Positions 47,219-61,844 of a DNA stretch of 64,000 nt are shown here, in pieces. Position numbers and translations under genes: made by a program. Source of the stretch: Methanoregula sp. GTDB taxonomy: Archaea > Halobacteriota > Methanomicrobia > Methanomicrobiales > Methanospirillaceae. Under the pieces are notes generated by a model. It searched no databases, had not been told where the DNA came from, and worked only from the letters and a program-made list of their open reading frames with translations. The DNA lies in assembly GCA_026625165.1 (NCBI GenBank), contig CP112999.1, forward strand, positions 372,001 through 436,000. The letters run 5' to 3'. The number at the start of each line of letters is the position of its first letter. The first letter of the stretch is position 1.

Positions 47219-48661
47219 GCATAATCATGGGAAGGTGGTTGCATGTAAACGTGTTGAAATCAAACAAATAGAAAAAGGCGGTATGAAATTAGTCCTTTTG
47301 CCTTTTTCATTAAGCCTTCCATGCTGCTTTGCGGCATGGCACGCCCTGAAGAAATGGTCAGGCATTCCATTCGTAACGCCTTTTTGGCTCTGGCTGACAT
47401 CCCGAAAAATTCCGATGGTTTCTTCTTTTCCCAAAATCCCGTACCGCGGCAGGTGAAACTGGGGATTTTCCAGCAACTGTCTTTGGGTGATCCATTATCC
47501 GGTGTCACCTGCTTTATTGTCGGGCAGGGGGGTCGGAGGGGGTCACGCAGGTACAATCGCAGACCGCTCCACCAGTTCTTCCGGAAGACTCAACCACCCG
47601 ATTTTTCAGGAAGCACCGGTGATAAAATGCGGTTGAATATTGCTGAACAGGGGGTGTTTGCAGCGGGAGGCAGGCCCCCCTCCCCCACCAAAAAAAGTGG
47701 TGCGACCCCCCTTTACCCCCCATGTTTTTTGGCCCTGTTTTTTTTATGGTTTTACGACAGGGAAAGTGGGTGCGTACTCAACCTGACAACCGGGGGGGGT
47801 CATGTGGGTACATGCCAATCTCAACGGGGGCAGTCCTGAGAAGAATTCACCGGAATGCACACAGTCAACTATGGGTTTTTCTTTTTTCCTTTATCGGCAA
47901 CGTCGGAGTGTCATTTAGTCTATATGAGCCGAGGACGGTTGAAAACTGACTGACCGACGACCCCCGACCCCGTCCCCTGTGAGAATGCGAGCACCCCCTT
48001 CATGTGCGCCGCTTCGTCAGGGCGCACGGGGGGGAGGGGTTTATCGACGGACGTTCAGAGAATGAGGTACTGAATTTTTCACAGTCAACTGTTTGAAACC
48101 ATCAGAATTCTTCGTGTTCCCCCCGTATCATGGGGAACCTCCCGATGCTTTTTTTGTAAATGCCGGCTCTTTGGCAGCGAGATAAAAACCACGAGAATAA
48201 CCTGTATTATCTTAAAAAATGATGAAGACCTCCTCTGTTCCGGTAACTGGCAGGGATGCAACAGAACCTGAAAAATCAAGATCAATAAATCATAAACCAA
48301 TGGATCTGGCAGTCATGATCCAAAAAAACCGGATGAACACAAAGATACATTAAATAAATTATAATATGCGCGTAACATACCATCATATTGTATTATGTAC
48401 TACAGGCCGACCAAACCGGACGGCTTCAATTTCACCTGCCTGAAAACAATTTTAATCGCCCCGATCAGGAAAAAGGGCTCATTTTATCGTTGAATTCCCC
48501 CGAAAAAACGACCACAAAGGATATATCAGCTCTTTTACAAATATTCAGTCATATTCCGTGTGAAACGGAGTATCGGGCTCGTAGAACGGTTATTCGGCAT
48601 CTGTCGAATCCCATGTTCGCGGCTTGGAATGTATGATGTAACGAATTGGAGGAAAAAACAA
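47219..48661. other. 1.4-kb gene-poor region with C/G runs, a strong hairpin and a repeated 11-mer
   Basis: Several short frames occur on both strands but none has a recognisable domain or ribosome site. Long C or G runs (near 47680-47720 and 47960-48040) alternate with A/T-rich DNA. A perfect 7-bp hairpin, GTGCGCC (48004-48010) with GGCGCAC (48021-48027), is flanked by C and G runs. CACAGTCAACT occurs twice, at 47860-47870 and 48080-48090. The 3' end holds the S-layer promoter region. It may be a degenerate or RNA-encoding region. Confidence 0.5.
48356..48367 (+). promoter_or_regulatory. Candidate TATA element before the S-layer gene
   Basis: AAATTATAATATG near 48357-48369 resembles an archaeal TATA box. 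Use of it would give a leader of almost 300 nt to the S-layer ATG at 48662. Transcripts of S-layer genes often carry long leaders, but this site has not been tested. Confidence 0.3.
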
Positions 48662-51600
48662 ATGACTAAGCGATTAACCATTACACTGGTTGCGCTCGTG
48701 TTGTTCGTGCTGCTCGCAGTTATGCCGGCATCGGCAATTGCTGCGAACCCGGCAACAGGACTGTACAACGGTTCCGTTTTACGGCCCTATCCTATGAACC
48801 TAACACCCGCTGTCGCAACCGTGTTTATTGGAGAAGACCAGTTGAATGCAACCCCAATCTTCGGGTATTTGAACTCACCAGGAACAGGTGACTATCAGAT
48901 TTCAACTGTCAAGAACATGAAGATCGGCTGGTGGGCACCAGGTACTTTCAGCTACCCGAACAACCCGTCAGCGGTCATCGATATGGGACCACGGTACGCG
49001 AACTTCTACGTGAGCCCCACCGATTTCGGCCCCTATCTTGGAACCTGGTACTGTCTGACTCCAGCCAATATTGCGGATGGTCCGGCATTCGTTGTTGCCG
49101 ATCCCTCTCAGACAATCGCAGCAATCGACGTTGCGGCGAACAATGGCCAGGGACAGGACATGACCGGCAAGTCAGTTGTCCGTGGAACTGTCCTTACGGT
49201 GAAGGTTGACACAAACCTTGCATCATTCACCACAGCCAACACACGCGGCAACAACATTACCGCTATGAACGTAAGCAGCGGTATGACCTACTGGAGAAAC
49301 TTTACCGGGGTCTTAACACCTATACAGTTCGAAGCTCCATTTACGGCCTTATGCTGGTCACAAAATGGAGGAGCCATCAGAGGTCCGCCAACGGCATATG
49401 ATACCATTGGAACAGCAGCCTCGATCTGGCAGGTTTCGAATGGGACAACCATAAGGACGACCTTTGGTAACTACTCGGCACCGATACAGACCTGGTACTT
49501 CAATAACACTGACCCCGCAATAGGCTCGACATCAGCCAGCTCAGCAACATCCGATGCATATTGCAGTCAAAACATTACCAGTGCGCCAGGAGTTTGTCCA
49601 TTCGCTGTGACTCCCCCCGCGGTTACTATCCCAGCCAATATCGTACAAACCATACCGGCAGCAGCCACTGATGGTTTCATCACGATCAAGCTGAAGGACG
49701 AATCCGGACAGGTACAGTCACGGGTATTTACCAACGCAGTACCCCAGACTGATATCACGATCATCAACCGGTGGGTCAACACCCAGCCATGGTACCTTGG
49801 AACCTTTACCGGCAACAACGGACTTGTTGCAATCGGATGGAACACCGGTGCTCTCGATCTGGGAACCGGCATGGCATACTATCCGGCAGGAACCTACACG
49901 CTCTGGACCGAGTCCACGCTCAGCCGTATGAAGGACAACTACAAGCTCGGCGGCGCTGACTACACAGGAAAGACCATTTCCGCGTCCGGTACCGTCACAC
50001 TTGTCTCCGATACGGTAAAGATCGAAGCGAACAAGGAATCGGTCGTCCGCAGCAAGCCATTCTCGGTTACCATCACCGGCAGACCCCTCACAACCTACTG
50101 GGTATGGGTGAAGGGCACATCCAGTATGTCCGGCGCATTCGACAACCAGCCGCCGATGTCAGGCCTGTTCCAGACCGCGGTCTACAACGACACGCCCAAC
50201 GGGCAGAACAACTATCCGCTCGGTCAATACGTGGGCGAGAACTTCGTCAACCGTGTCCTGTGTGCACCGGCTAACCAGCCAGGCAGTGATGTTGCAGCCG
50301 ATCCAACGATCTACAACCGCACACGCTACTACGTCCTGATCAACACGTCTTCGTCAGGTACACGAACCGTTCAGTTCGAAACCACAAACTGGACCAAGGC
50401 ACAGACGTACACGATCCGTGTAGAGCGCGACACCTCTGTAGGAAACCAGGGAACCAATCCGTTGGTCAACCCGGTTGCAGCCCAGCGCATCTACAGGTCA
50501 GATGAGGTTGATGTAAAGGTCGAGAAGGGTGCAGTTACCATCACTGCAGCCGGTGACCAGAGCTACTACCTCGGAGAAGAGATCAAGTTCTCCGGTACCA
50601 ACACCGAATCCCAGACGACATTCCTCTTCATCACCGGTCCGAACCTGAACACTCAGGGTTCAAGTTTCACACGCACCGGAGACCAGGACATTCGCAGGAC
50701 ACGTATTGACGGAGTCGCAACTGACGCCAGAGATCAGGTTGCAGGCGACTATATGCAGAGACCCGTCAACGCCGACAACACCTGGGACTGGAAGTGGGGA
50801 ACCGCCAACTGGGCACTCGATGCAGGAACCTACACGGTCTATGCAGTGAGCGGACCGCACAATGCAAACAACCTTGCAAATGTTGCCTATGGCACGGTCT
50901 CGATCATCATCAAGAAACCGTTCGTCTCGGCAACCGCGTCCCAGTCGACAGTCGCACAGGGTGACAAGTTATTCATCACCGGTACGGCTGAGGGCAAGCC
51001 GCAGCAGGGCATTGCAATCTGGATCCTCGGAAAGAACTATGCACTACGTGTCACTGAATCAGTGAACTCTGATGCTTCGTTCTCATACGAGGTCACCACC
51101 GCAACAACCACGCTCATGGATGCCGGCCAGTACTTCGTTGTCGTCCAGCACCCGATGCAGAACCAGCAGTTCGATATCGACATGTGTCCAGTCGTTGCCC
51201 CGGCAGTAAGATCTACACAGGTCTGTAACTTACAGCAGGCTACTACAACTACTGGTCAACAGATCTTCCAGCTTCTCGGAGCAGGAAGCCTGCAGGGCAC
51301 CGATGCAGCTGAGGCACTCGTCCAGGGAATCAACACCGCGAACGTCGATGATACCTACACGAAACTCGTGTTCCTGGTAGAGGTCCCGAACATCCGGATT
51401 GACCCGATCGGCGACAGGCATGTTGGCGACAAGTTCACCATCACCGCAACCACGAACCTTGCAGTCGACGACGAAGTCCAGATGACCGTCGTTTCATCAT
51501 CATTCAAGCCAACCCAGAAGAGCCAGAGCGGAGAGTTCAGTGGCGCATCAGGTACGGTCAAAGTCACCAAGGGTGACACCGGTCTGAACAAGATCTCATT

Positions 51601-51892
51601 CGATGTGGACGCATCCACATTCAAACCGGATGAGTACATTGTTACAGCCAACCGTGTCCTCCAGCCGCCCGCAACCGCAACTGCACTGTTCAACGTCCTT
51701 GAGGGCGCTGCCCCAACCGCAGTCCCGACAGCCGTTAGCACAACTGCAGCCCCGACTCAGGTCACAACCGCAGCCCCGACCGAAGTGCCGACAGCTGCAC
51801 CAACCAAGACCCCGACACAGCCCGGGTTTGGTGCACTTGTAGCCCTGATTGGTCTCGGCGCCGTTGCGTTCTTTGTCGTCCGCAGGCACTGA
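48662..51892 (+). CDS. S-layer glycoprotein with PGF-type C-terminal sorting signal
   Basis: 1076 residues from the ATG at 48662, with GGAGG upstream. The signal peptide is about 1-27. The body is a series of beta domains rich in Asn, Thr and Ser with many N-glycosylation sequons. A Thr/Pro/Ala-rich stretch (PTQVTTAAPTEVPTAAP) ends in PGFGALVAL and a hydrophobic helix plus Arg-Arg-His, the archaeosortase PGF-CTERM type. It is the main cell-surface protein of this type of methanogen. The frame from 48560 is too long. Confidence 0.9.
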   Translation: MTKRLTITLVALVLFVLLAVMPASAIAANPATGLYNGSVLRPYPMNLTPAVATVFIGEDQLNATPIFGYLNSPGTGDYQISTVKNMKIGWWAPGTFSYPNNPSAVIDMGPRYANFYVSPTDFGPYLGTWYCLTPANIADGPAFVVADPSQTIAAIDVAANNGQGQDMTGKSVVRGTVLTVKVDTNLASFTTANTRGNNITAMNVSSGMTYWRNFTGVLTPIQFEAPFTALCWSQNGGAIRGPPTAYDTIGTAASIWQVSNGTTIRTTFGNYSAPIQTWYFNNTDPAIGSTSASSATSDAYCSQNITSAPGVCPFAVTPPAVTIPANIVQTIPAAATDGFITIKLKDESGQVQSRVFTNAVPQTDITIINRWVNTQPWYLGTFTGNNGLVAIGWNTGALDLGTGMAYYPAGTYTLWTESTLSRMKDNYKLGGADYTGKTISASGTVTLVSDTVKIEANKESVVRSKPFSVTITGRPLTTYWVWVKGTSSMSGAFDNQPPMSGLFQTAVYNDTPNGQNNYPLGQYVGENFVNRVLCAPANQPGSDVAADPTIYNRTRYYVLINTSSSGTRTVQFETTNWTKAQTYTIRVERDTSVGNQGTNPLVNPVAAQRIYRSDEVDVKVEKGAVTITAAGDQSYYLGEEIKFSGTNTESQTTFLFITGPNLNTQGSSFTRTGDQDIRRTRIDGVATDARDQVAGDYMQRPVNADNTWDWKWGTANWALDAGTYTVYAVSGPHNANNLANVAYGTVSIIIKKPFVSATASQSTVAQGDKLFITGTAEGKPQQGIAIWILGKNYALRVTESVNSDASFSYEVTTATTTLMDAGQYFVVVQHPMQNQQFDIDMCPVVAPAVRSTQVCNLQQATTTTGQQIFQLLGAGSLQGTDAAEALVQGINTANVDDTYTKLVFLVEVPNIRIDPIGDRHVGDKFTITATTNLAVDDEVQMTVVSSSFKPTQKSQSGEFSGASGTVKVTKGDTGLNKISFDVDASTFKPDEYIVTANRVLQPPATATALFNVLEGAAPTAVPTAVSTTAAPTQVTTAAPTEVPTAAPTKTPTQPGFGALVALIGLGAVAFFVVRRH

Positions 51893-52075
51893 ACTAAAAA
51901 ACCAAACATCTCTTTTTTTTGGATCCCTTTAAACCGAAGGCTTATTGCGCCTTTTTTTGTATCTTGTATCCTCTGTTCCCTCCTGCTTTTAGTTCAGGCA
52001 AGAGCATTTAAGGCAAGACCTCAAAATCTCCCGTAAAAGATAGTGTTTATTTCCCGGGACAGGGAGGTAGGATCT

Positions 52076-53605
52076 GTGGTAAAGTTCAGTGCAAAAGTCC
52101 TTGATATTGCAAAACGTGGTGTATTGCTCAACCGGCTCGATGCCCGCAACATTGGTGTTCTCGATGGTGACCGCGTCCAGGTAATCAACCTGGCAAATGG
52201 TGTATCAGTTACAGCCTTTGTTGATACAACAATCACTATCGCAGAGCAGGGTACCGTGGGTATTTATCGAATTACCAACGACAAGCTTGGCTTAAAAGAT
52301 GGTGACGGCGGCATCGAAATACGGGAAGCAGGCAGACCTGCATCCCTTGAGTATATAAAAAAGAAGATGGATGGCAGCAGGCTGACAAAAGAAGAGATGA
52401 ATGTCATTATAAAAGATGTGGTAAACGATGACATCTCTTCTGCTGAGCTCACCGCGTTCATCACCGCGTCTTATATCAACCCGCTCGACATGGACGAAGT
52501 TGAACATCTCACGAGAGCCATGGTGGATACTGGCGAGCAGATCAAATTTGCGTCCAAACCGATAGTGGATAAGCACTCAATAGGTGGAGTACCAGGGAAT
52601 AAGATCTCACTTTTAGTCGTCCCAATCATTGCAGCAAGCGGGCTTAAGATACCAAAAACCAGTTCCCGTGCAATCACCGGTGCAGGTGGCACTGCCGATC
52701 TCATGGAAGTCCTTGCGTTTGTAGAATTCACTGCAAGCGAAGTCCAGCAGATGACAGAGAAGGTAGGAGCCGTGATTGTCTGGGGTGGTGCGACAAATAT
52801 CGCACCTGCAGATGATCGCATCATCATCCAGGAATATCCATTCAGGATTGATGCACGGGGGCAGATGCTTGCCAGCGTCATGGCAAAGAAGTATGCCGTC
52901 GGAGCAAATCTGGTAATAATCGATATTCCCGTTGGCCAGCACACGAAGGTACCTTCCATGCAGGATGGCCGGAAACTTGCCCGGGAGTTTATCGAACTGG
53001 GCGAACGGCTCAATATGCGCGTGGAATGCGCTCTCACGTACGGGGATATCCCTGTAGGTTACAGCATCGGCCCGAAACTGGAGGTAATAGAAGCCCTGCG
53101 TGTCCTCGAAGGCGCCACGGAACCAAATTCATTTATCCAGAAAAGCGTCTCGCTTGCCGGAATAGCATTAGAAATGTCAGGAAAAGCCGCACAGGGAACC
53201 GGGGCATCAATGGCACAGGAGCTCCTCACCAGAGGAAAGGCGCTGGAAAAGTTCAAGAAGATCATCGAGATCCAGGGGGGCGATCCATCCATAAAATCCG
53301 GTGACATCACGCCCGGTGAACACCAGTTTGTCATTCACGCCCCAACTTCAGGTTACGTAATTGAGATGAACAACAAGTCCTTAATCACCCTCGCCCGGAT
53401 AGCAGGAGCTCCCCATGATCGCGGAGCCGGGATACTCCTCCATGCCAAGAAAGGCAAGATGATCAAGACAGGAGAACCATTGTTCACCATCTATGCCGAC
53501 CGGAGCTGGCGCCTGCAGAAAGCCATTGAAGAAGGGCGAAGGCTGATGCCGGTGCTTGTGGAAGGGATGCTCCTTGACCGTGTCCCGTCAGGCCGGTCAT
53601 TTTGA
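52076..53605 (+). CDS. deoA: AMP phosphorylase
   Basis: 509 residues from the GTG at 52076, with GGGAGGT eight bases upstream; a frame start at 52043 is less likely. It phosphorolyses AMP (and CMP, UMP) to adenine plus ribose 1,5-bisphosphate in the archaeal nucleotide-salvage pathway that ends in RubisCO type III. The nucleoside-phosphorylase motifs are [30 protein letters not shown] and [16 protein letters not shown]. The C-terminal pyrimidine-phosphorylase domain is present. Confidence 0.94.
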
Positions 53606-53645
53606 ACCGATGCGCTCAAATATGAGCAGGGGTGGATATTTACCT

Positions 53646-55034
53646 ATGAATAAGCATCTGTTTCGTTTCCTTTTTGCTCTGCTGTTCGCATTCCTTCTTT
53701 GCGGAGCGGTACAGGCAACGATTCTCGAGCTCACCGTGCTCGACAATGTGGATAACACCTCGGTCTCCCATGCTACGGTCTTTGTTGATGGCTCAAACGT
53801 TGGAAGGACCAACAACATTGGCCAGTATTATATCACGCGTTCGGAGACCAACGACATCATGCTCCGTGTTTCGATGTCAGGGTTCGATGACTGGTCGAGC
53901 GTCGTGAAGAGTAATGTTACGTCCCTTACAGTCAACCTCATCCGGAAGAGCTTAAAGCTCAATGTCAATGTGCATGACAGCGATACGCTCTCGCCGATCC
54001 CAGATGCAGAGATAATCATCACTGCAGAGAATACCACATCAGCCCATAAAACGGATGCAAGTGGAACAGCAATGTTCAATGTAATGGGTGCAACCCTCTA
54101 TGCCATCGAAATCAGGTCCACGAATTATCAGACCCGTACCGGGACCGTCGAGATCAGTTCTTCAGATGTTTCAGTTCAATATGCCCTCATGTCGGGAAAC
54201 CGTTTCTCGTTTGTCGTAAAGGATCAGGATGATTTCCCAATCGAGAATGCTGAGGTCAGGATTGATAATGTCCTTGCAGGAAAAACAGATCCCCGTGGAA
54301 TCCTGACAACGAAGGTGGGGCGGGGGAAAACCTATACCATTGAAGTTAAAAAAGACGGGTACCAGCCATATGTCATCACACGGTCGATTTCAGATACAGA
54401 TGAATTGCTCACTGTGGCGATGTCAAAGGCACCAGTCGGGGCGTTCATTTATGTCGTGGATGAATCAAAATCCCCGGTAAATGATGCGGATGTGTACCTT
54501 AATGGCGAACGGGCCGGGTCAACGAACCAGTACGGGCGGTACATGCTCTCCAATGTTGTAGTAGGCAGTTTTACCGTTGAAGTAAGAAAGAACGGTCTTG
54601 TGACAACCCAGAAACAGATTAACGTTACCAAACAGGGTGATGAATTTACTCTTGAACTGCCCTTTGAAACGGTTGACCTGAAGGTCTTTGTTCAGGATAA
54701 AGATCAAAAGGTGGTCCCTGACGCAGCAATTCTCGTCAATAATGATAAACGGGGAGTCACCGATGATCACGGACAGATTATCACAAAAGTGAAACTGAAT
54801 TCTGTATATAATGTTTCTGCAGTCAAGGAGGGATACCAGTCACAATCCGTTCAAAAAGAGATCAAACAAAGCAATGAAACGCCAACACTGACACTCACTT
54901 TGGAAAAGAACCTTGACTGGGGTTTCATCGGGCTTGTGGTTGCCGGTGCATTGGGTGTGCTGTTGATCTTCGGAATAATCAGGATCGGGCGTTCAAAGAA
55001 ACGCCATCACATAATAAGAAGGAATGAAATTTAA
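53646..55034 (+). CDS. Surface protein of repeated carboxypeptidase-regulatory-like domains, C-terminally anchored
   Basis: 462 residues from the ATG at 53646. A signal peptide (about 1-24) precedes five beta-sandwich repeats of about 80 residues, each of the PEGA or carboxypeptidase regulatory-like kind. Repeating pattern: a valine-rich strand, a DAEV-(I/V)-N segment, a G-T(D/N)-x-x-G turn, then a YT(I/V)EVKKxGY strand. A transmembrane helix near 430-450 and a basic tail anchor it. It begins 40 bp after deoA and sits between the S-layer and VWA genes. Confidence 0.83.
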   Translation: MNKHLFRFLFALLFAFLLCGAVQATILELTVLDNVDNTSVSHATVFVDGSNVGRTNNIGQYYITRSETNDIMLRVSMSGFDDWSSVVKSNVTSLTVNLIRKSLKLNVNVHDSDTLSPIPDAEIIITAENTTSAHKTDASGTAMFNVMGATLYAIEIRSTNYQTRTGTVEISSSDVSVQYALMSGNRFSFVVKDQDDFPIENAEVRIDNVLAGKTDPRGILTTKVGRGKTYTIEVKKDGYQPYVITRSISDTDELLTVAMSKAPVGAFIYVVDESKSPVNDADVYLNGERAGSTNQYGRYMLSNVVVGSFTVEVRKNGLVTTQKQINVTKQGDEFTLELPFETVDLKVFVQDKDQKVVPDAAILVNNDKRGVTDDHGQIITKVKLNSVYNVSAVKEGYQSQSVQKEIKQSNETPTLTLTLEKNLDWGFIGLVVAGALGVLLIFGIIRIGRSKKRHHIIRRNEI

Positions 55035-55112
55035 CCGATTTTCAATTTTATCCATTAATTTTTGTTATTATTCAATTTAAGTCTCAAATTTTGCTTTTTT
55101 TTTAAAAGAAAA

Positions 55113-55121
55113 TTATATATA
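55113..55121 (+). promoter_or_regulatory. TATA box of the VWA surface protein
   Basis: TTATATATA about 30 bp before the ATG at 55151, the spacing of a leaderless archaeal promoter. The surrounding DNA is A/T-rich. Confidence 0.5.
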
Positions 55122-55150
55122 GTGGTGAAGTAAATTACTCACTCTGAGTG

Positions 55151-58120
55151 ATGGGTATGTCCGGATGGAAGATACAATTATTGATTATTGGATTCATTCT
55201 GCTCATTGGCACTGCATCAGCAGTGATACCAACCAAAATCACCATAACCAGCAGTGCTGATTCGGATAGTCATAATGGGTGGCTCGTTGCCAACGGGGCC
55301 GACCAGACAACAATTACCATTAAGGTCGAGAACAATTCCCTCAGTCCTCCCCCTGTGCTGGAACCGGTCAGCCTCGCAAACGTGATTGTATCTGTTGATC
55401 CACTCTTTGGATCCCTGACTGATACAAACCTGGTGACAAATCCCTTAGGGGAAGCAACAACAATATTCACGACAAACAAGACTTCCACAGATGCCCTTGA
55501 ACTAAATGTTACGGCATTCAATGCGGATGGTCAGATATGGGCAATAAAATTGATAAAAATCGATCATGATCAGGCATATTACGTATATTTCAGTTATGAG
55601 GACGAGGTGATCATCGATCAGACAACGCCTTTTATTGTCACATTGAGAGACCGGTGGGGAAACCCAGTTGATAATAAGAACCCCAATAAAATCCACACTG
55701 CCAGATTTCACATTTATCCACCCCCCGGGGGACTTGGCAACGGCGGGCTGAAAAATGCAACAACAGGATATCTTCCGGAAATTTCTGATATAACTGATAT
55801 AACCGGTAATATTTCATTAACAGCGAAAGTTGACACGGTTGCCGGCGAGAATAATATCTGGATGGAACGTATTGAAAGCGTACCTGACCAGTATCCTTTC
55901 ATTGTCGGGATTGCTGAGAGTGTTCCATTCTCCATCGATCAGGTATTTGATCCCACGGCAGTCCCCAATCCCTTTGTCCCGGCAGATAACGATAAAAAAT
56001 TTACCATAAAATATACCCTTCATGACCAGTTCGGCAACCCGGCGGGAAATCAATCCGTATATATCTACACATCACTAGGGGAGAACCTTGGCAACATCAC
56101 GACCAATTCGGTTGGAGAAATATGGGTAACGTACGGGCCGAGAAGCACAAGTGTTAACGCAAACATTACTGCAATTGCGCTTGCCAACACATCAGTCAGC
56201 TGTTTTAAAACCGTTGAGTTCAGGAGCACTGAACCGATAATGATGCTTGTATCGGCAAATCCTGAGACAATGCCGAGTCTCGATGTAAAGAGTGACATGG
56301 TAGCAGATATCAAAGCGAAGGTGATGGATATCAGCGGAAATCCAGTCGCCGGACAAACTGTGACATTTATAATGGGTGCACCAGCCTATGATGGAACCTA
56401 CAATATTACCGGATTGCCATCCCTGCTGTCAGCAAGTGCCTTAACTGATGCCGATGGATACGGGACGGTACAGTTCGTACCAGGGTCATTTTCAACAGAC
56501 CCGAGTGCCCTCCACTATAGCGAAACTGCGACAGGCAGTGTAGTAATTACAGCTACGTGGACTCCCCCCAACAGTACAACCCAAACCCAAACGGTGACGG
56601 TTTACTGGAAGAACTACCCGTATCTCAGTGTAAAGACATATGTCGTTCCCCAGAGTGTGGCGCTCAACGAAACGTTTGATGTCACCATCGAGCTCTATGG
56701 CGACGGCTATAAAATGGTGCAACACCCGATTGATGTGATGCTCACCTTTGACAGGTCCGGGAGCATGGCAGGGACAAAGCTCACCGATGCCAAGACTGCC
56801 TCGAAATCCTTTATTGACCAGATGAATGCAACCCGTGATAAAGTTGGGCTCTATGCATATAGTGATACATTTCTCTTGAGAAATTCACTCACAAGTGCGT
56901 TTGCCTCTGTAAAAACTAATATTGATGCATTGACCGCAAGTGGTTATACGGGAACCAGGAGAGCACTCAAGGAGTCGATCGATAATGTCATTGCCAACCG
57001 CAACCCGGATCCCGAATCTGTACAGGCTGTAATTCTTATGACAGATGGTGAGTATAACTATTATGGATGCCCGCTTGCACGGGGAATAGGGTACACACCA
57101 ACATATGCTTGGACAAGCACGTATACCAACAGGCACACTTGGATCAACGGATTGGGTGGAACAACCGGAGGTACAGGGAACCCGAATCTGTTCACTCAGC
57201 AGAATATGTCAATCTATGCACGAGATAATAACATCAGGGTTTATTCGATCTCGTTTGGGAGCGGAATCACACCGGGTTCGGTTACGTGGAACACTTTAGA
57301 GGTCCTCTCTAATGCAACCGGGGCGAAACATTTCCATGCAGCAACCGGTGCTGACCTGCTGGATATGTATACCCTGATCGCCGGGGAGCTGAAAACGTCT
57401 GCAGGCGTGAACACCACAATGGAATTGAAATTTGACAATGTGTCCATTAATAACGTTTCTGTTCCCGGAGGCAATGCATTCAACTATACCTATGTTCCTG
57501 GAATATCCACCCATATCACCAATAATTCATATGACGGGACCATCGATCAGACTGCTGACTGGATGGACGACCAAAACCTCTACTTTGATATCGGCACTGT
57601 GCACCTGGAGGAATATTGGAGGGGAACATTCAGGCTCAGGGCGATTTATGCCCAAGGGGGCAATGTCAATATCTTTGGTGACAACTCCATCATCAGCTTC
57701 AATAACAATGAAGCGACCCTGAAAATGCCCCTGACATGGGTGACCATCATCCCAAACCTCACAAACATAGGGATCAATTCCACCACTCTTGACGTGTCCA
57801 ATCTCCAATCCACAGCTCCCGGAGTCATCAAGGATTTCATCCCGCTCCAGTGGGAGATCAATTATGATGGCAACGAGACGGTGACCGAACGGATCTCATA
57901 TTCAAATAATGGCGGACTTACATGGGTGCTTTTCGATACAAACTACATCACCAAAGGTACCTTTACTGATTACTCCAGCCTGGACGTCCGTCTGCTGCCT
58001 CCCGGTGAATACTGGATCCGGGTGGATGCAAGCGCCCCAGATGCACCCAATGACCGGGAGACCCTTATTGCCCCGGTTACAGTTGGAACTGCCGGGCGTT
58101 CCTATATCAAACTCGAATAA
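55151..58120 (+). CDS. Large secreted VWA protein with Ig-like (invasin-type) domains
   Basis: 989 residues from the ATG at 55151. The signal peptide is about 1-24. Four or so tandem beta-sandwich repeats, each with an A-D-G-x-T-N-x-x-G-x-A-type turn (Big-1/invasin-like), cover about 25-500. A von Willebrand A domain follows, with the MIDAS motif Asp534-Arg-Ser-Gly-Ser and the second Thr/Asp region VILMTDGEYNY. More beta domains make up the rest. No C-terminal anchor was seen, so it may attach to the S-layer. It is likely adhesive or structural and metal-dependent. Confidence 0.87.
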   Translation: MGMSGWKIQLLIIGFILLIGTASAVIPTKITITSSADSDSHNGWLVANGADQTTITIKVENNSLSPPPVLEPVSLANVIVSVDPLFGSLTDTNLVTNPLGEATTIFTTNKTSTDALELNVTAFNADGQIWAIKLIKIDHDQAYYVYFSYEDEVIIDQTTPFIVTLRDRWGNPVDNKNPNKIHTARFHIYPPPGGLGNGGLKNATTGYLPEISDITDITGNISLTAKVDTVAGENNIWMERIESVPDQYPFIVGIAESVPFSIDQVFDPTAVPNPFVPADNDKKFTIKYTLHDQFGNPAGNQSVYIYTSLGENLGNITTNSVGEIWVTYGPRSTSVNANITAIALANTSVSCFKTVEFRSTEPIMMLVSANPETMPSLDVKSDMVADIKAKVMDISGNPVAGQTVTFIMGAPAYDGTYNITGLPSLLSASALTDADGYGTVQFVPGSFSTDPSALHYSETATGSVVITATWTPPNSTTQTQTVTVYWKNYPYLSVKTYVVPQSVALNETFDVTIELYGDGYKMVQHPIDVMLTFDRSGSMAGTKLTDAKTASKSFIDQMNATRDKVGLYAYSDTFLLRNSLTSAFASVKTNIDALTASGYTGTRRALKESIDNVIANRNPDPESVQAVILMTDGEYNYYGCPLARGIGYTPTYAWTSTYTNRHTWINGLGGTTGGTGNPNLFTQQNMSIYARDNNIRVYSISFGSGITPGSVTWNTLEVLSNATGAKHFHAATGADLLDMYTLIAGELKTSAGVNTTMELKFDNVSINNVSVPGGNAFNYTYVPGISTHITNNSYDGTIDQTADWMDDQNLYFDIGTVHLEEYWRGTFRLRAIYAQGGNVNIFGDNSIISFNNNEATLKMPLTWVTIIPNLTNIGINSTTLDVSNLQSTAPGVIKDFIPLQWEINYDGNETVTERISYSNNGGLTWVLFDTNYITKGTFTDYSSLDVRLLPPGEYWIRVDASAPDAPNDRETLIAPVTVGTAGRSYIKLE

Positions 58121-58707: not shown

Positions 58708-59654
58708 TTCGTACCGAGCGGAAATATATCGAGATTCTGAGAATTTTAAAGGAGCACCGGGATCCTGTCGGGGCAAAGCGGCTCTCGGAACTGATGGCGG
58801 AACGCGGGTTCATCCTGAGCGACCGTGCGGTTCAGTATTATCTCAGTTATCTCGATACGATGGGTTTTACGGAAAAGATCGGCAACCAGGGCAGGGTACT
58901 GACTCCGGCAGGATTCCAGGAGACCGATAATGCACTTGTCGATGACCGCATTGGTTTTATAATCTCAAAGCTCGAGCGTCTGGCATACCGAAGCACATTT
59001 GATCCTGTAACCGGGACCGGAGATGTAGCGTACAACCTTTCGGTTGTTCCTGAAGGATCGCTGGACCGCATCCGTGCAGCTTTTGACGAGGTTATAAAAA
59101 CTGGATGCGGTTTCTTTTCCTCATATCGAATTATCGACCGTGACCCGCGGATTCCTGATGGCTTTGTGGGGCTTATCACAATCTGCAGCATCTCGATGGA
59201 TGGCGTCTTTCAACGGAACGGAGTCCCGGTAAAGATGGCGTACGGGGGAAGGCTTGAGATTATCCACGGGACACCAAGACGGTTTGTTGACCTGATCGGT
59301 TATCGGGGGACAACCATTGATCCGCTCGAACTGTTCATATCTTCAGGACTCACATCGGTCAACAGCTACTGCAGAACAGGGACGGGTATTGCGCTCGCCA
59401 ACGTGCGCGAAGTTCCTGCATCTTCGCAGAACCAGGTACAGGAGATCATCGGGCAGATGAACAAGTCGGGTTTTATTTTTCCTGTGAAGATGGGAAACCC
59501 GGTATTCAACCTTCCGCACAACCCATACCGGCTCTCGATTGTTGCGTTCAGTGGTCTTAACTTCATCGGCAACGTAGTGGAGCAGGGGTTCGAAATCAAA
59601 ACCGAGATTGGTGCCGGGAATATCCCGTTTGCCAGAGTGATGGAGACGAACTGA
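58704..59654 (+). CDS. nrpR: Nitrogen regulator NrpR, single-domain type
   Basis: 316 residues. A winged HTH (about 1-65) with KRLSELMAERGFILSDRAVQYYL is followed by one NrpR regulatory (DUF128) domain with GRLEIIHGTPRRFVDLIGYRGT and SGLTSVNSYCRTGTG. NrpR represses nitrogen-assimilation genes and releases them when 2-oxoglutarate is high. The single regulatory domain is the NrpRI type of Methanosarcinales, which works with a separate second protein. It overlaps the dcd-family gene (ATGA) and its stop abuts the stop of the convergent FtsZ-like gene. Confidence 0.88.
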   Translation: MIRTERKYIEILRILKEHRDPVGAKRLSELMAERGFILSDRAVQYYLSYLDTMGFTEKIGNQGRVLTPAGFQETDNALVDDRIGFIISKLERLAYRSTFDPVTGTGDVAYNLSVVPEGSLDRIRAAFDEVIKTGCGFFSSYRIIDRDPRIPDGFVGLITICSISMDGVFQRNGVPVKMAYGGRLEIIHGTPRRFVDLIGYRGTTIDPLELFISSGLTSVNSYCRTGTGIALANVREVPASSQNQVQEIIGQMNKSGFIFPVKMGNPVFNLPHNPYRLSIVAFSGLNFIGNVVEQGFEIKTEIGAGNIPFARVMETN

Positions 59655-61844
59655 TCATCTTACCCAGCTGGCATCATCGTCACCAGACCCTTTTTTTCCC
59701 TGTTTTTTTGATGATAGCTCGTTTTCCTTTGGCCGTCCGGCAAGTTTGATGTCCGAAACAATGTCATCTTTTTCTCTGGACTCCCGTTCGCGATGAAGGT
59801 TTGTATGCAGGAGTGCATCATCCCTGACAACCTGCGGAATATCTTTTAACTTGAATATCTCCTGCTCAAAGATCCCATCTTTTTTTCGGGTGGGAGCCTG
59901 CCGGATCCAGTCATCGATACTAACGGTCTGATCGTTTTGCGGGGTTTCTGCACCGGACTCGCGGTCTTTTTGAGAGGTCTTATTCTCAGGAACCTTATTG
60001 TCGTGGGATGCCTCATCACCCTTTTTTTGAAGCACGATTTTTTTTGAGTCCTGCTTTTTATGGATCACATGACGTGAACCCGGGACCGGATCAGTTTTTT
60101 TTGGAGCCGCCTTATCAGCATCACTTGTCATGGGCTGATTTGAGGCCGCACCTGTTTCCGGTATTTTCCGGAGATGCCGATCCAGTTTTGTGTCCCGTCC
60201 TGTTATTGCCATCAACCGCTGCTTCTGCAGTTCCTTCTCAATCTTTTTTCGCTCCTGCTCTTTGAGTCTGGCACGGTCATCCAGAGACACCGGAATTTTA
60301 TCCGGCAAATGGGGTGATTGCTGGGAAGCAAGTATCTTTTTTACAGGTATTGGCGCTCCTTTATCAGATGCCGGAATGGTGCCTTTAACCGGAGTCATCT
60401 CATATGGTTTATTAATGATTAAACGGCGCTGGCGCTGGACGGTTACCGGCTTGGTTTTTATTGGTTCTGGACGAGATCCCTCCACGGAATCCCTTGAATG
60501 CAGTGATGGGGGGGAAACTTCCTCAGATTTATCCGGTATTTTGTTTTTAGGAACGGAGATCATCTCGTCCCTGAGAACTGACGACCGGTGAGCCGTACCG
60601 GATGAAGCTGCAACAGGCCCTTTGCCGGAATTCTCACTGCTGACCGCAATTTCACCGGGTGACTGTTCCGCTTCAAGGTGTTGATTATACTGGGTGCGGA
60701 TCTCTTTGATCTCCGAGATACGTGGAATATTTTCAAGCCCGGTCAGCATAATGATGATCGCAACAAATCTGGTGCTGGTCACCGGATAGTCGCCGGATCT
60801 CGTCTCAAGTCCGGCAATGCTGCGGTCGATCCATTTACGCACGGTCATATATCCTTTGAGGGAAAGCTCATGGGAGGGTCCCGCGATCAGCACGAGGGCT
60901 TTATGTGCGCTGGTCAGATCACAGGGCGTGGAGATCTCATGGTAGATTGCCTGCTTAGCCAGTTCCACGATCCTCGAGGCTCTCTTCTGGTGCTCATCGG
61001 CAAAAAAACCGGTCGGACGCAATTTCGAAAGAAAATCCAGGGGGTTTTGGGGGATTTGTTCAACGGCATATCCAATGGTGATAAAACCCATACCCTTCAT
61101 CGTATTCAGGACTTCACCGGAATCAAGGACCACTTCTGCCAGTTCAATCCCCCCGTCCGCTTTAAATTCCCCTGCCCGGAGTATGAGGCTGATCCTCCTG
61201 ACAATGGCATCATTGAGCAGGGAGTACATCTTCTGAACCGGGGATAGTACCCGGTCCGGCTTTTTTTTGAACCCCAATCGTGCTGCAAACTCCTCATCCT
61301 CATGCGCAAGGGTTTTCTGCTTGGATTTGATCTTTTTGTACCATGTCTCGTTATCAAAGAGGATTATCCCGTCAAGCATGGGAGACAGCATTTCAATATC
61401 GTCTGCAGCTTTTGCTGAGCATTGCTCCCCCTCAGAAAGGCATGGCAGCGTGACAAGCCCGAAGATCGGCTCCACCATCGAAGAACGAAGCGCTGCAATA
61501 ATATGGGATGCAGAGTCAACAATCGCGCCCCCCAGCCCGGCACAGATAAATATTGCATCGGTTTCACCCGTTGCCATTGTCTGGACGCGTGCAGTCACCT
61601 CTGCAATGTCAATGGTTGCTGATGTCCCGGTATCCGGAGAGTCCTGCGGACTGGTGATGTCGATGGGAGGGAAATAAATCTTGGACGATTCTGGAAGCCC
61701 GGTGAGTTGTGAGAGGCTGTCGGAATCGACGTCGACAGCAAGCGCCTGAACGCACACCACCTTGCTGCTCCGACGGTCTGTGCGGTAGAGCACATCCACA
61801 ATTCTCCCCCCTGCCCCGCCAAGGCCAATCGCCAGGATCCGCAT
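59655..61844 (-). CDS. Divergent FtsZ/tubulin-superfamily protein with long charged tail
   Basis: 729 residues. Residues 1-390 follow the tubulin/FtsZ GTPase domain: IGLGGAGGRIVD (7-17), VDVDSDSL, and LVTLPCLSEG...DDIEMLSPMLDGIILFDN, which matches the FtsZ helix-strand after loop T4. The tubulin signature GGGTGTG is replaced by GLGGAIVDS (103-111). The T7 catalytic NxDxxD is read as GIELAEV (232-238), with Glu in place of both Asp. From about 390 a Lys/Glu/Ser/Pro-rich, probably disordered tail of about 340 residues follows. It is not canonical FtsZ1, FtsZ2 or CetZ. Confidence 0.85.
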   Translation of the reverse strand: MRILAIGLGGAGGRIVDVLYRTDRRSSKVVCVQALAVDVDSDSLSQLTGLPESSKIYFPPIDITSPQDSPDTGTSATIDIAEVTARVQTMATGETDAIFICAGLGGAIVDSASHIIAALRSSMVEPIFGLVTLPCLSEGEQCSAKAADDIEMLSPMLDGIILFDNETWYKKIKSKQKTLAHEDEEFAARLGFKKKPDRVLSPVQKMYSLLNDAIVRRISLILRAGEFKADGGIELAEVVLDSGEVLNTMKGMGFITIGYAVEQIPQNPLDFLSKLRPTGFFADEHQKRASRIVELAKQAIYHEISTPCDLTSAHKALVLIAGPSHELSLKGYMTVRKWIDRSIAGLETRSGDYPVTSTRFVAIIIMLTGLENIPRISEIKEIRTQYNQHLEAEQSPGEIAVSSENSGKGPVAASSGTAHRSSVLRDEMISVPKNKIPDKSEEVSPPSLHSRDSVEGSRPEPIKTKPVTVQRQRRLIINKPYEMTPVKGTIPASDKGAPIPVKKILASQQSPHLPDKIPVSLDDRARLKEQERKKIEKELQKQRLMAITGRDTKLDRHLRKIPETGAASNQPMTSDADKAAPKKTDPVPGSRHVIHKKQDSKKIVLQKKGDEASHDNKVPENKTSQKDRESGAETPQNDQTVSIDDWIRQAPTRKKDGIFEQEIFKLKDIPQVVRDDALLHTNLHRERESREKDDIVSDIKLAGRPKENELSSKKQGKKGSGDDDASWVR

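Follow-up and report, generated by a model that had tools for sequence, protein, structure and literature searches.

The window analysed here, a stretch of 64,000 nucleotides from Methanoregula sp. (Methanomicrobiales), contains a minus-strand open reading frame at 61844-59655 that encodes a protein of 729 amino acids. An initial annotation of this DNA had reported the frame without naming its strand. The frame does exist, with its ATG at 61844 and its stop codon at 59655-59657, and the ATG matches the start in an alignment of 38 orthologs. We call the gene pseudo-CetZ, a label coined here for a degenerate CetZ paralog. The protein consists of a tubulin-fold core (residues 1-390, 60675-61844) and a disordered charged tail (residues 391-729, 59658-60674); all parts of the protein described below are likewise on the minus strand.

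Profile searches, which had been suggested in the initial annotation, gave a CetZ_C (PF21011) score of 141.4 bits (cut-off 21.6) for approximately residues 203-383 (60696-61238), while the Pfam Tubulin GTPase domain scored just 42.7 bits. The NCBIfam ftsZ equivalog TIGR00065 stayed far below its cut-off (47.1 bits, cut-off 295.2), which rules out a generic FtsZ. The Tubulin_2 FtsZ-like membrane-remodelling system of Makarova and Koonin was also rejected (PF13809, 13 bits, cut-off 27). The latter idea had been prompted by a VWA protein at 55148-58117, which carries Ig-like domains (it is presumably secreted) and is present at just 22 of 80 loci. By sequence, Haloferax CetZ1 (4b46) is the best match among solved chains. 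When the core was modelled with AF2 (pLDDT 83.9, pTM 0.84), the model retrieved CetZ1 (4b46, TM 0.86 by target length), CetZ2 and Methanosaeta CetZ as the top PDB folds in Foldseek, in agreement with the tubulin-superfamily fold that had been proposed. Pseudo-CetZ is a CetZ-related protein of the tubulin superfamily and not a generic FtsZ, an affiliation absent from the initial annotation. It is an ancient CetZ paralog, and we class it as CetZ-derived rather than as a canonical CetZ because it lacks the T4 G-box, the T2 Asn and the T3 GHGxGxDN sequence.

The Haloferax volcanii proteins CetZ1 and CetZ2 (4b46, 4b45) share with pseudo-CetZ the fold, the CetZ_C domain and the T7 Asp and Glu, their E218 corresponding to E244 of pseudo-CetZ. 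However, their G-box is still of the GGGTGSG type, and they bind GDP or GTPgammaS, whereas pseudo-CetZ has degenerate T2, T3 and T4 loops and an extra tail of 339 residues. The third-best structural match, the CetZ of Methanothrix (Methanosaeta) thermophila (3zid), is 17% identical to pseudo-CetZ; the sampled proteins of family f8 retain a GGTGSS-type loop.

To describe the nucleotide loops, we compared 101 Methanomicrobiales orthologs with 54 canonical CetZs, adding four FtsZs in the T7 alignment. The T1 glycine loop (GLGGAGGR, residues 7-14, 61803-61826), whose IGLGGAGG start had been correctly noted, is kept in part: G7, G9 and G12 occur in 99% of orthologs, and the canonical Q10 and K14 are lost. 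The T2 loop (residues 36-41, 61722-61739) has D-x-D in place of the canonical N-T/S-A. D38 is found in 99/101 orthologs and D40 in 88/101, as against N and A in 54/54 canonical CetZs each. The T3 region (residues 58-78, 61611-61673) lacks the canonical GHGVGAD block, and G65, H66, G67, G69, D71 and N72 are retained in just 0-15% of orthologs. Neither the T2 nor the T3 loss had been noticed in the initial annotation.

The T4 G-box (residues 103-113, 61506-61538) reads GLGGAIVDSAS, where GLGGGTGSGGA/SP is canonical. The initial annotation had correctly placed GLGGAIVDS at residues 103-111 and recognized a degenerate nucleotide loop. The GLGG half is nearly invariant, and the second half (G-T-G-S-G-G) is lost in every one of the 101 orthologs, with Thr at 2%, Ser at 3% and the last Gly at 0%. 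In place of the Thr, most orthologs have M or L, and D110 is present in 67/101. Both D38 and D110 would put acidic residues near the phosphate positions. The T5 P-E-G and the T6 Asn are retained. The ortholog alignment shows that the GTP-phosphate-binding residues of T2, T3 and T4 are lost order-wide in Methanomicrobiales.

The T7 loop presents a different picture from the one originally drawn. It had been read as GIELAEV, with both catalytic Asp replaced by Glu, which is a register error. When aligned with the canonical CetZs and FtsZs, the NxDxxD position corresponds to V-L-D241-S-G-E244, part of a segment (VLDSGEVLNT, residues 239-248, 61101-61130) that covers the loop and the start of H8. 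The first Asp is kept in 99/101 orthologs and the Glu in 98/101; Glu is also the norm for the second T7 acid in canonical CetZs (54/54; D215 and E218 in their numbering). Thus, rather than being altered, T7 is of the ordinary CetZ type and is the best-conserved part of the protein. Residues that are invariant in canonical CetZs are retained at 25/78 positions in residues 1-175 and at 34/66 from H7 onward. Among six close relatives, dN/dS is 0.026 in the T7 region (residues 226-250), 0.055 in the C-domain and 0.12 in the core N-domain, and higher in T3 (0.21), T4 (0.26) and the tail (0.28), all of these figures being approximate since dS is near saturation. These rates and the ortholog conservation show strong constraint on the C-terminal domain and on the CetZ-type activating loop T7. 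Because some 100 orthologs share the degenerate pattern and dN/dS is low, the pattern is not a matter of chance.

An ortholog occurs in 74/81 Methanomicrobiales genomes; the seven that lack it are 62-88% complete, and every genome of the order that is at least 90% complete has it. Those close relatives that carry names are mostly from Methanoregula (66-89% identity). At least two CetZ_C genes are present in 45/45 Methanomicrobiales genomes listed in our survey of the phylum. The genome studied here has four tubulin-superfamily genes, namely two FtsZs, pseudo-CetZ and a canonical CetZ (L003) that the initial annotation had not taken into account and that has GLGGGTGSGGSP. Four genomes of family f6 (G053, G058, G063 and G078) carry three CetZ_C genes apiece, not two.

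Outside Methanomicrobiales, families f9 and f31 contain a second CetZ-like protein that is shorter (approximately 300-340 amino acids) and has lost the G-box (e.g. SLESDF). We infer from its two CetZ types that f9 is Archaeoglobaceae. This Archaeoglobales-type degenerate paralog retains two T7 acids and co-occurs with a canonical CetZ. In one f31 genome (G263; L175, 3987-6308), the degenerate gene lies roughly 110 bp upstream of the canonical gene, in tandem on the same strand. In a phylogenetic tree, the Methanomicrobiales group is monophyletic (100/99), as are the Archaeoglobales-type group (100/100) and the canonical CetZ clade (98/94), and the tree does not fix the branching order of the three. 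All 14 Archaeoglobales-type proteins score above the canonical profile with the pseudo-CetZ profile. A single origin of the two degenerate groups is favoured by these HMM scores, although the tree does not settle the matter.

Brown and Duggin previously named a group of “non-Halobacteria-like CetZ” in Methanomicrobiales and Archaeoglobales (PMC9856176). By description this is the same group as pseudo-CetZ, a second deep-branching CetZ per genome in these orders. Their 2023 CetZ phylogeny thus already shows the clade, and functional pairs were proposed, but the group is handled simply as CetZ, and the main text mentions neither the loss of the T2, T3 and T4 loops and the retention of T7 nor the long tail and the C-terminal peptide (PMC9856176). 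The parts of a 2023 paper on FtsZ and tubulin evolution that were available to us do not mention a lost GTP site either (PMC9871819). A report of this loss was found in neither source to this extent, and it may be noted in supplements or in subscription literature. The papers on pseudo-tubulins and ARC3 that were accessible to us yielded no usable parallel. Brown and Duggin also assign a Methanosarcinales CetZ to the non-Halobacteria-like group (PMC9856176). By contrast, the f8 proteins examined, which are presumably of that type, retain GGTGSS in their G-box, and the canonical CetZ profile gives them the higher score. In L188-L191 of this family, the box reads SASGGTGSSF(T/S)P and differs from that of canonical CetZ as well as from that of pseudo-CetZ.

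The long charged tail proposed in the initial annotation is confirmed. Its approximately 339 residues have a net charge of +11 and consist to 77% of K, R, E, D, S, P, Q, T, N, G and A. A full-length AF2 model, which is poor for the core because of a shallow alignment and was used solely to judge disorder in the tail, predicts a disordered tail (pLDDT below 50 at residues 395-520, 557-642 and 649-729), with a charged helix as the main exception (residues 522-548, 60201-60281, containing ...QERKKIEKELQKQR..., pLDDT up to 89). The initial annotation had also raised the conservation of tail length among orthologs as a question. Orthologs are indeed widespread, but tail length is very uneven: some genera of the same family have only a few residues, and the longest tails exceed 700. 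Four short segments are conserved. The first is RDEMI (residues 425-429, 60558-60572), in which D426 and M428 reach at least 90% in 22 full-length relatives and DEMI occurs in 33 long tails. The others are the helix (I535, E536, L539, Q540, Q542 and R543), DDALLHTNL (residues 675-683, 59796-59822; D675 and L683) and the C-terminus. The tails of several family f2 proteins (L028, L032, L034, L036 and L039) have several repeats of the type (R/K)PKELLSGGVKI, possibly multivalent docking sites.

The C-terminal peptide, DDDASWVR (residues 722-729, 59658-59681), resembles FtsZ C-terminal domains and had escaped the initial annotation. An ending of W[ILVM] plus 0-1 residue is found in 54/72 complete long-tailed orthologs, in 0/25 short-tailed orthologs and in 14/2141 neighbouring ORFs (0.65%), some of which are spurious. 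A pattern search of the genome itself gave pseudo-CetZ and two other sites only, about as many as a reversed-pattern control. The motif is not an artefact of antisense overlap with nrpR, as it also occurs with a zero or positive gap and without nrpR. In the same genomes, FtsZ1 ends in (E/D)IDFL(K/R) or EIDFMK, and FtsZ2 in LLEWVG, LIDFIR, LVDWVM and similar sequences. A scoring matrix built from these FtsZ ends, with the 99th background percentile as threshold, was exceeded by 37/72 long tails, 2/1440 internal tail windows and 14/56 canonical CetZs. The tail had been called unlike that of FtsZ, which is true of the long linker, but the layout of core, disordered linker and C-terminal aromatic peptide is FtsZ-like.

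Archaeal FtsZ1 and FtsZ2 likewise have a core, a linker and a short C-terminal peptide with an aromatic and then a hydrophobic residue, and SepF binds this C-terminal region of the archaeal FtsZs around a GID motif (PMC8178401). Pseudo-CetZ orthologs that end in GIDWIT or GITWI resemble this motif. However, the FtsZs keep their GTP site, their linker is much shorter than that of pseudo-CetZ, and some pseudo-CetZ orthologs lack the peptide. The end of the protein studied here, ASWVR, lacks the GID core, which is present in some orthologs only. SepF is single-copy in 31/31 genomes checked. The C-terminal Trp is missing in 16/72 long-tailed orthologs and in every short-tailed one, which excludes SepF binding as the core function. 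Tethering to SepF through the tail end is a possibility that we regard as rather doubtful.

The near order-wide presence of pseudo-CetZ beside a normal CetZ suggests a helper role, in which it would cap or anchor the filaments of CetZ instead of building its own. We know of essentially no established function for CetZ outside haloarchaea. The retained residues and the co-occurrence of the two genes are consistent with a partner whose T7 face docks on canonical CetZ and which serves as a cap, turnover factor or adaptor, a reading to which we give a little under an even chance. The pocket of pseudo-CetZ itself would be unable to bind and hydrolyse GTP in the manner of CetZ. Its intact T7 face would dock on the GTP-bearing face of canonical CetZ, and its Asp and Glu could trigger GTP hydrolysis in this partner. 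Since the opposite face would carry no nucleotide, the filament would be ended or modified there. In long-tailed species, the disordered tail would be a flexible tether. Its end may bind an envelope anchor, SepF or a similar one, in the way that FtsZ C-terminal peptides do, and so link CetZ polymers to the membrane or the division site. Several observations count against this proposal. Residues of T1, the P, E and G of T5 and the N of T6 are retained, so that a nucleotide or another ligand may still bind. Moreover, a quarter of canonical CetZs also pass the FtsZ-end matrix, and the peptide of the protein studied here has no GID.

If pseudo-CetZ is a pseudo-GTPase, annotations that name it an FtsZ or a CetZ GTPase mislead, and if it offers an activating face only, the “functional pair” suggested earlier takes on a concrete, testable form, as a mechanism that controls a tubulin-type filament. 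In a broader and distinctly more speculative form, the docking proposal describes an order-wide two-part CetZ cytoskeleton, with a related form in Archaeoglobaceae. In this system, a GTP-binding CetZ would be accompanied by an obligate pseudo-GTPase that gives a T7 face only, sets filament ends and turnover and is tethered by its tail to SepF. A dedicated cap or adaptor would then have evolved from the filament subunit itself, and the FtsZ-like peptide would tie CetZ to the division machinery.

Alternatively, T1, T5 and T6 of pseudo-CetZ might belong to a rebuilt pocket that still binds GTP or another ligand, and the protein might act as an ordinary divergent CetZ in cell shape or the envelope. 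The conserved T1 glycines, T5 P-E-G, T6 Asn and GLGG half of the G-box fit this explanation, as does the treatment of the group in the literature simply as CetZ (PMC9856176). Nevertheless, the G-box Thr, Ser and last glycines, the T2 Asn and the entire T3 block are lost in nearly every ortholog, and a nearly invariant D38 occupies the position of a phosphate-binding Asn; we consider a rebuilt pocket improbable, though worth keeping in mind. A self-polymerising, nucleotide-free stable scaffold, close to the static filament envisaged in the initial annotation, is unlikely. The complete tubulin fold and the strongly conserved C-terminal domain would suit it, and the retained T7 would be merely structural. 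A purely structural T7, however, need not keep its Asp and Glu at 97-98% when the faces at T3 and T4 are drifting, a homopolymer would be expected to keep both contact faces, and co-presence with canonical CetZ would be a coincidence.

A divergent FtsZ that works directly in the division ring is very unlikely: the layout and the C-terminal peptide are FtsZ-like, but the TIGR00065 score is low, the core clusters with CetZ, and the same genome already has canonical FtsZ1 and FtsZ2. Decay of the gene can be practically dismissed, for despite a degenerate active site and faster evolution of T3 and T4, the gene is intact in almost every genome of the order, its dN/dS is far below 1, 38 diverse orthologs share invariant residues, and the canonical G-box is lost in all 101 Methanomicrobiales orthologs. 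The initial annotation had considered a degraded copy whose orthologs keep GGGTGTG, but no ortholog does.

The genes dcd and nrpR (downstream) and mer (upstream) are syntenic with pseudo-CetZ at most of 80 loci. The neighbourhood had been taken to argue for a new role, which is a weak argument: these conserved neighbours are all on the opposite strand and are therefore uninformative on function, and an operon was rejected for the same reason. At 59652-59657, nrpR (plus strand) and pseudo-CetZ end in stop codons that abut with no spacer. In many genomes of the order these convergent genes lie 0-10 bp apart, and in some they overlap by approximately 17 bp. Further away, at 48560-58120, a DUF3821 protein with a PGF-CTERM anchor is followed by a thymidine/AMP-phosphorylase-like gene, a CarboxypepD_reg/PEGA protein and a VWA/Ig-like protein, which are likely cell-surface genes.
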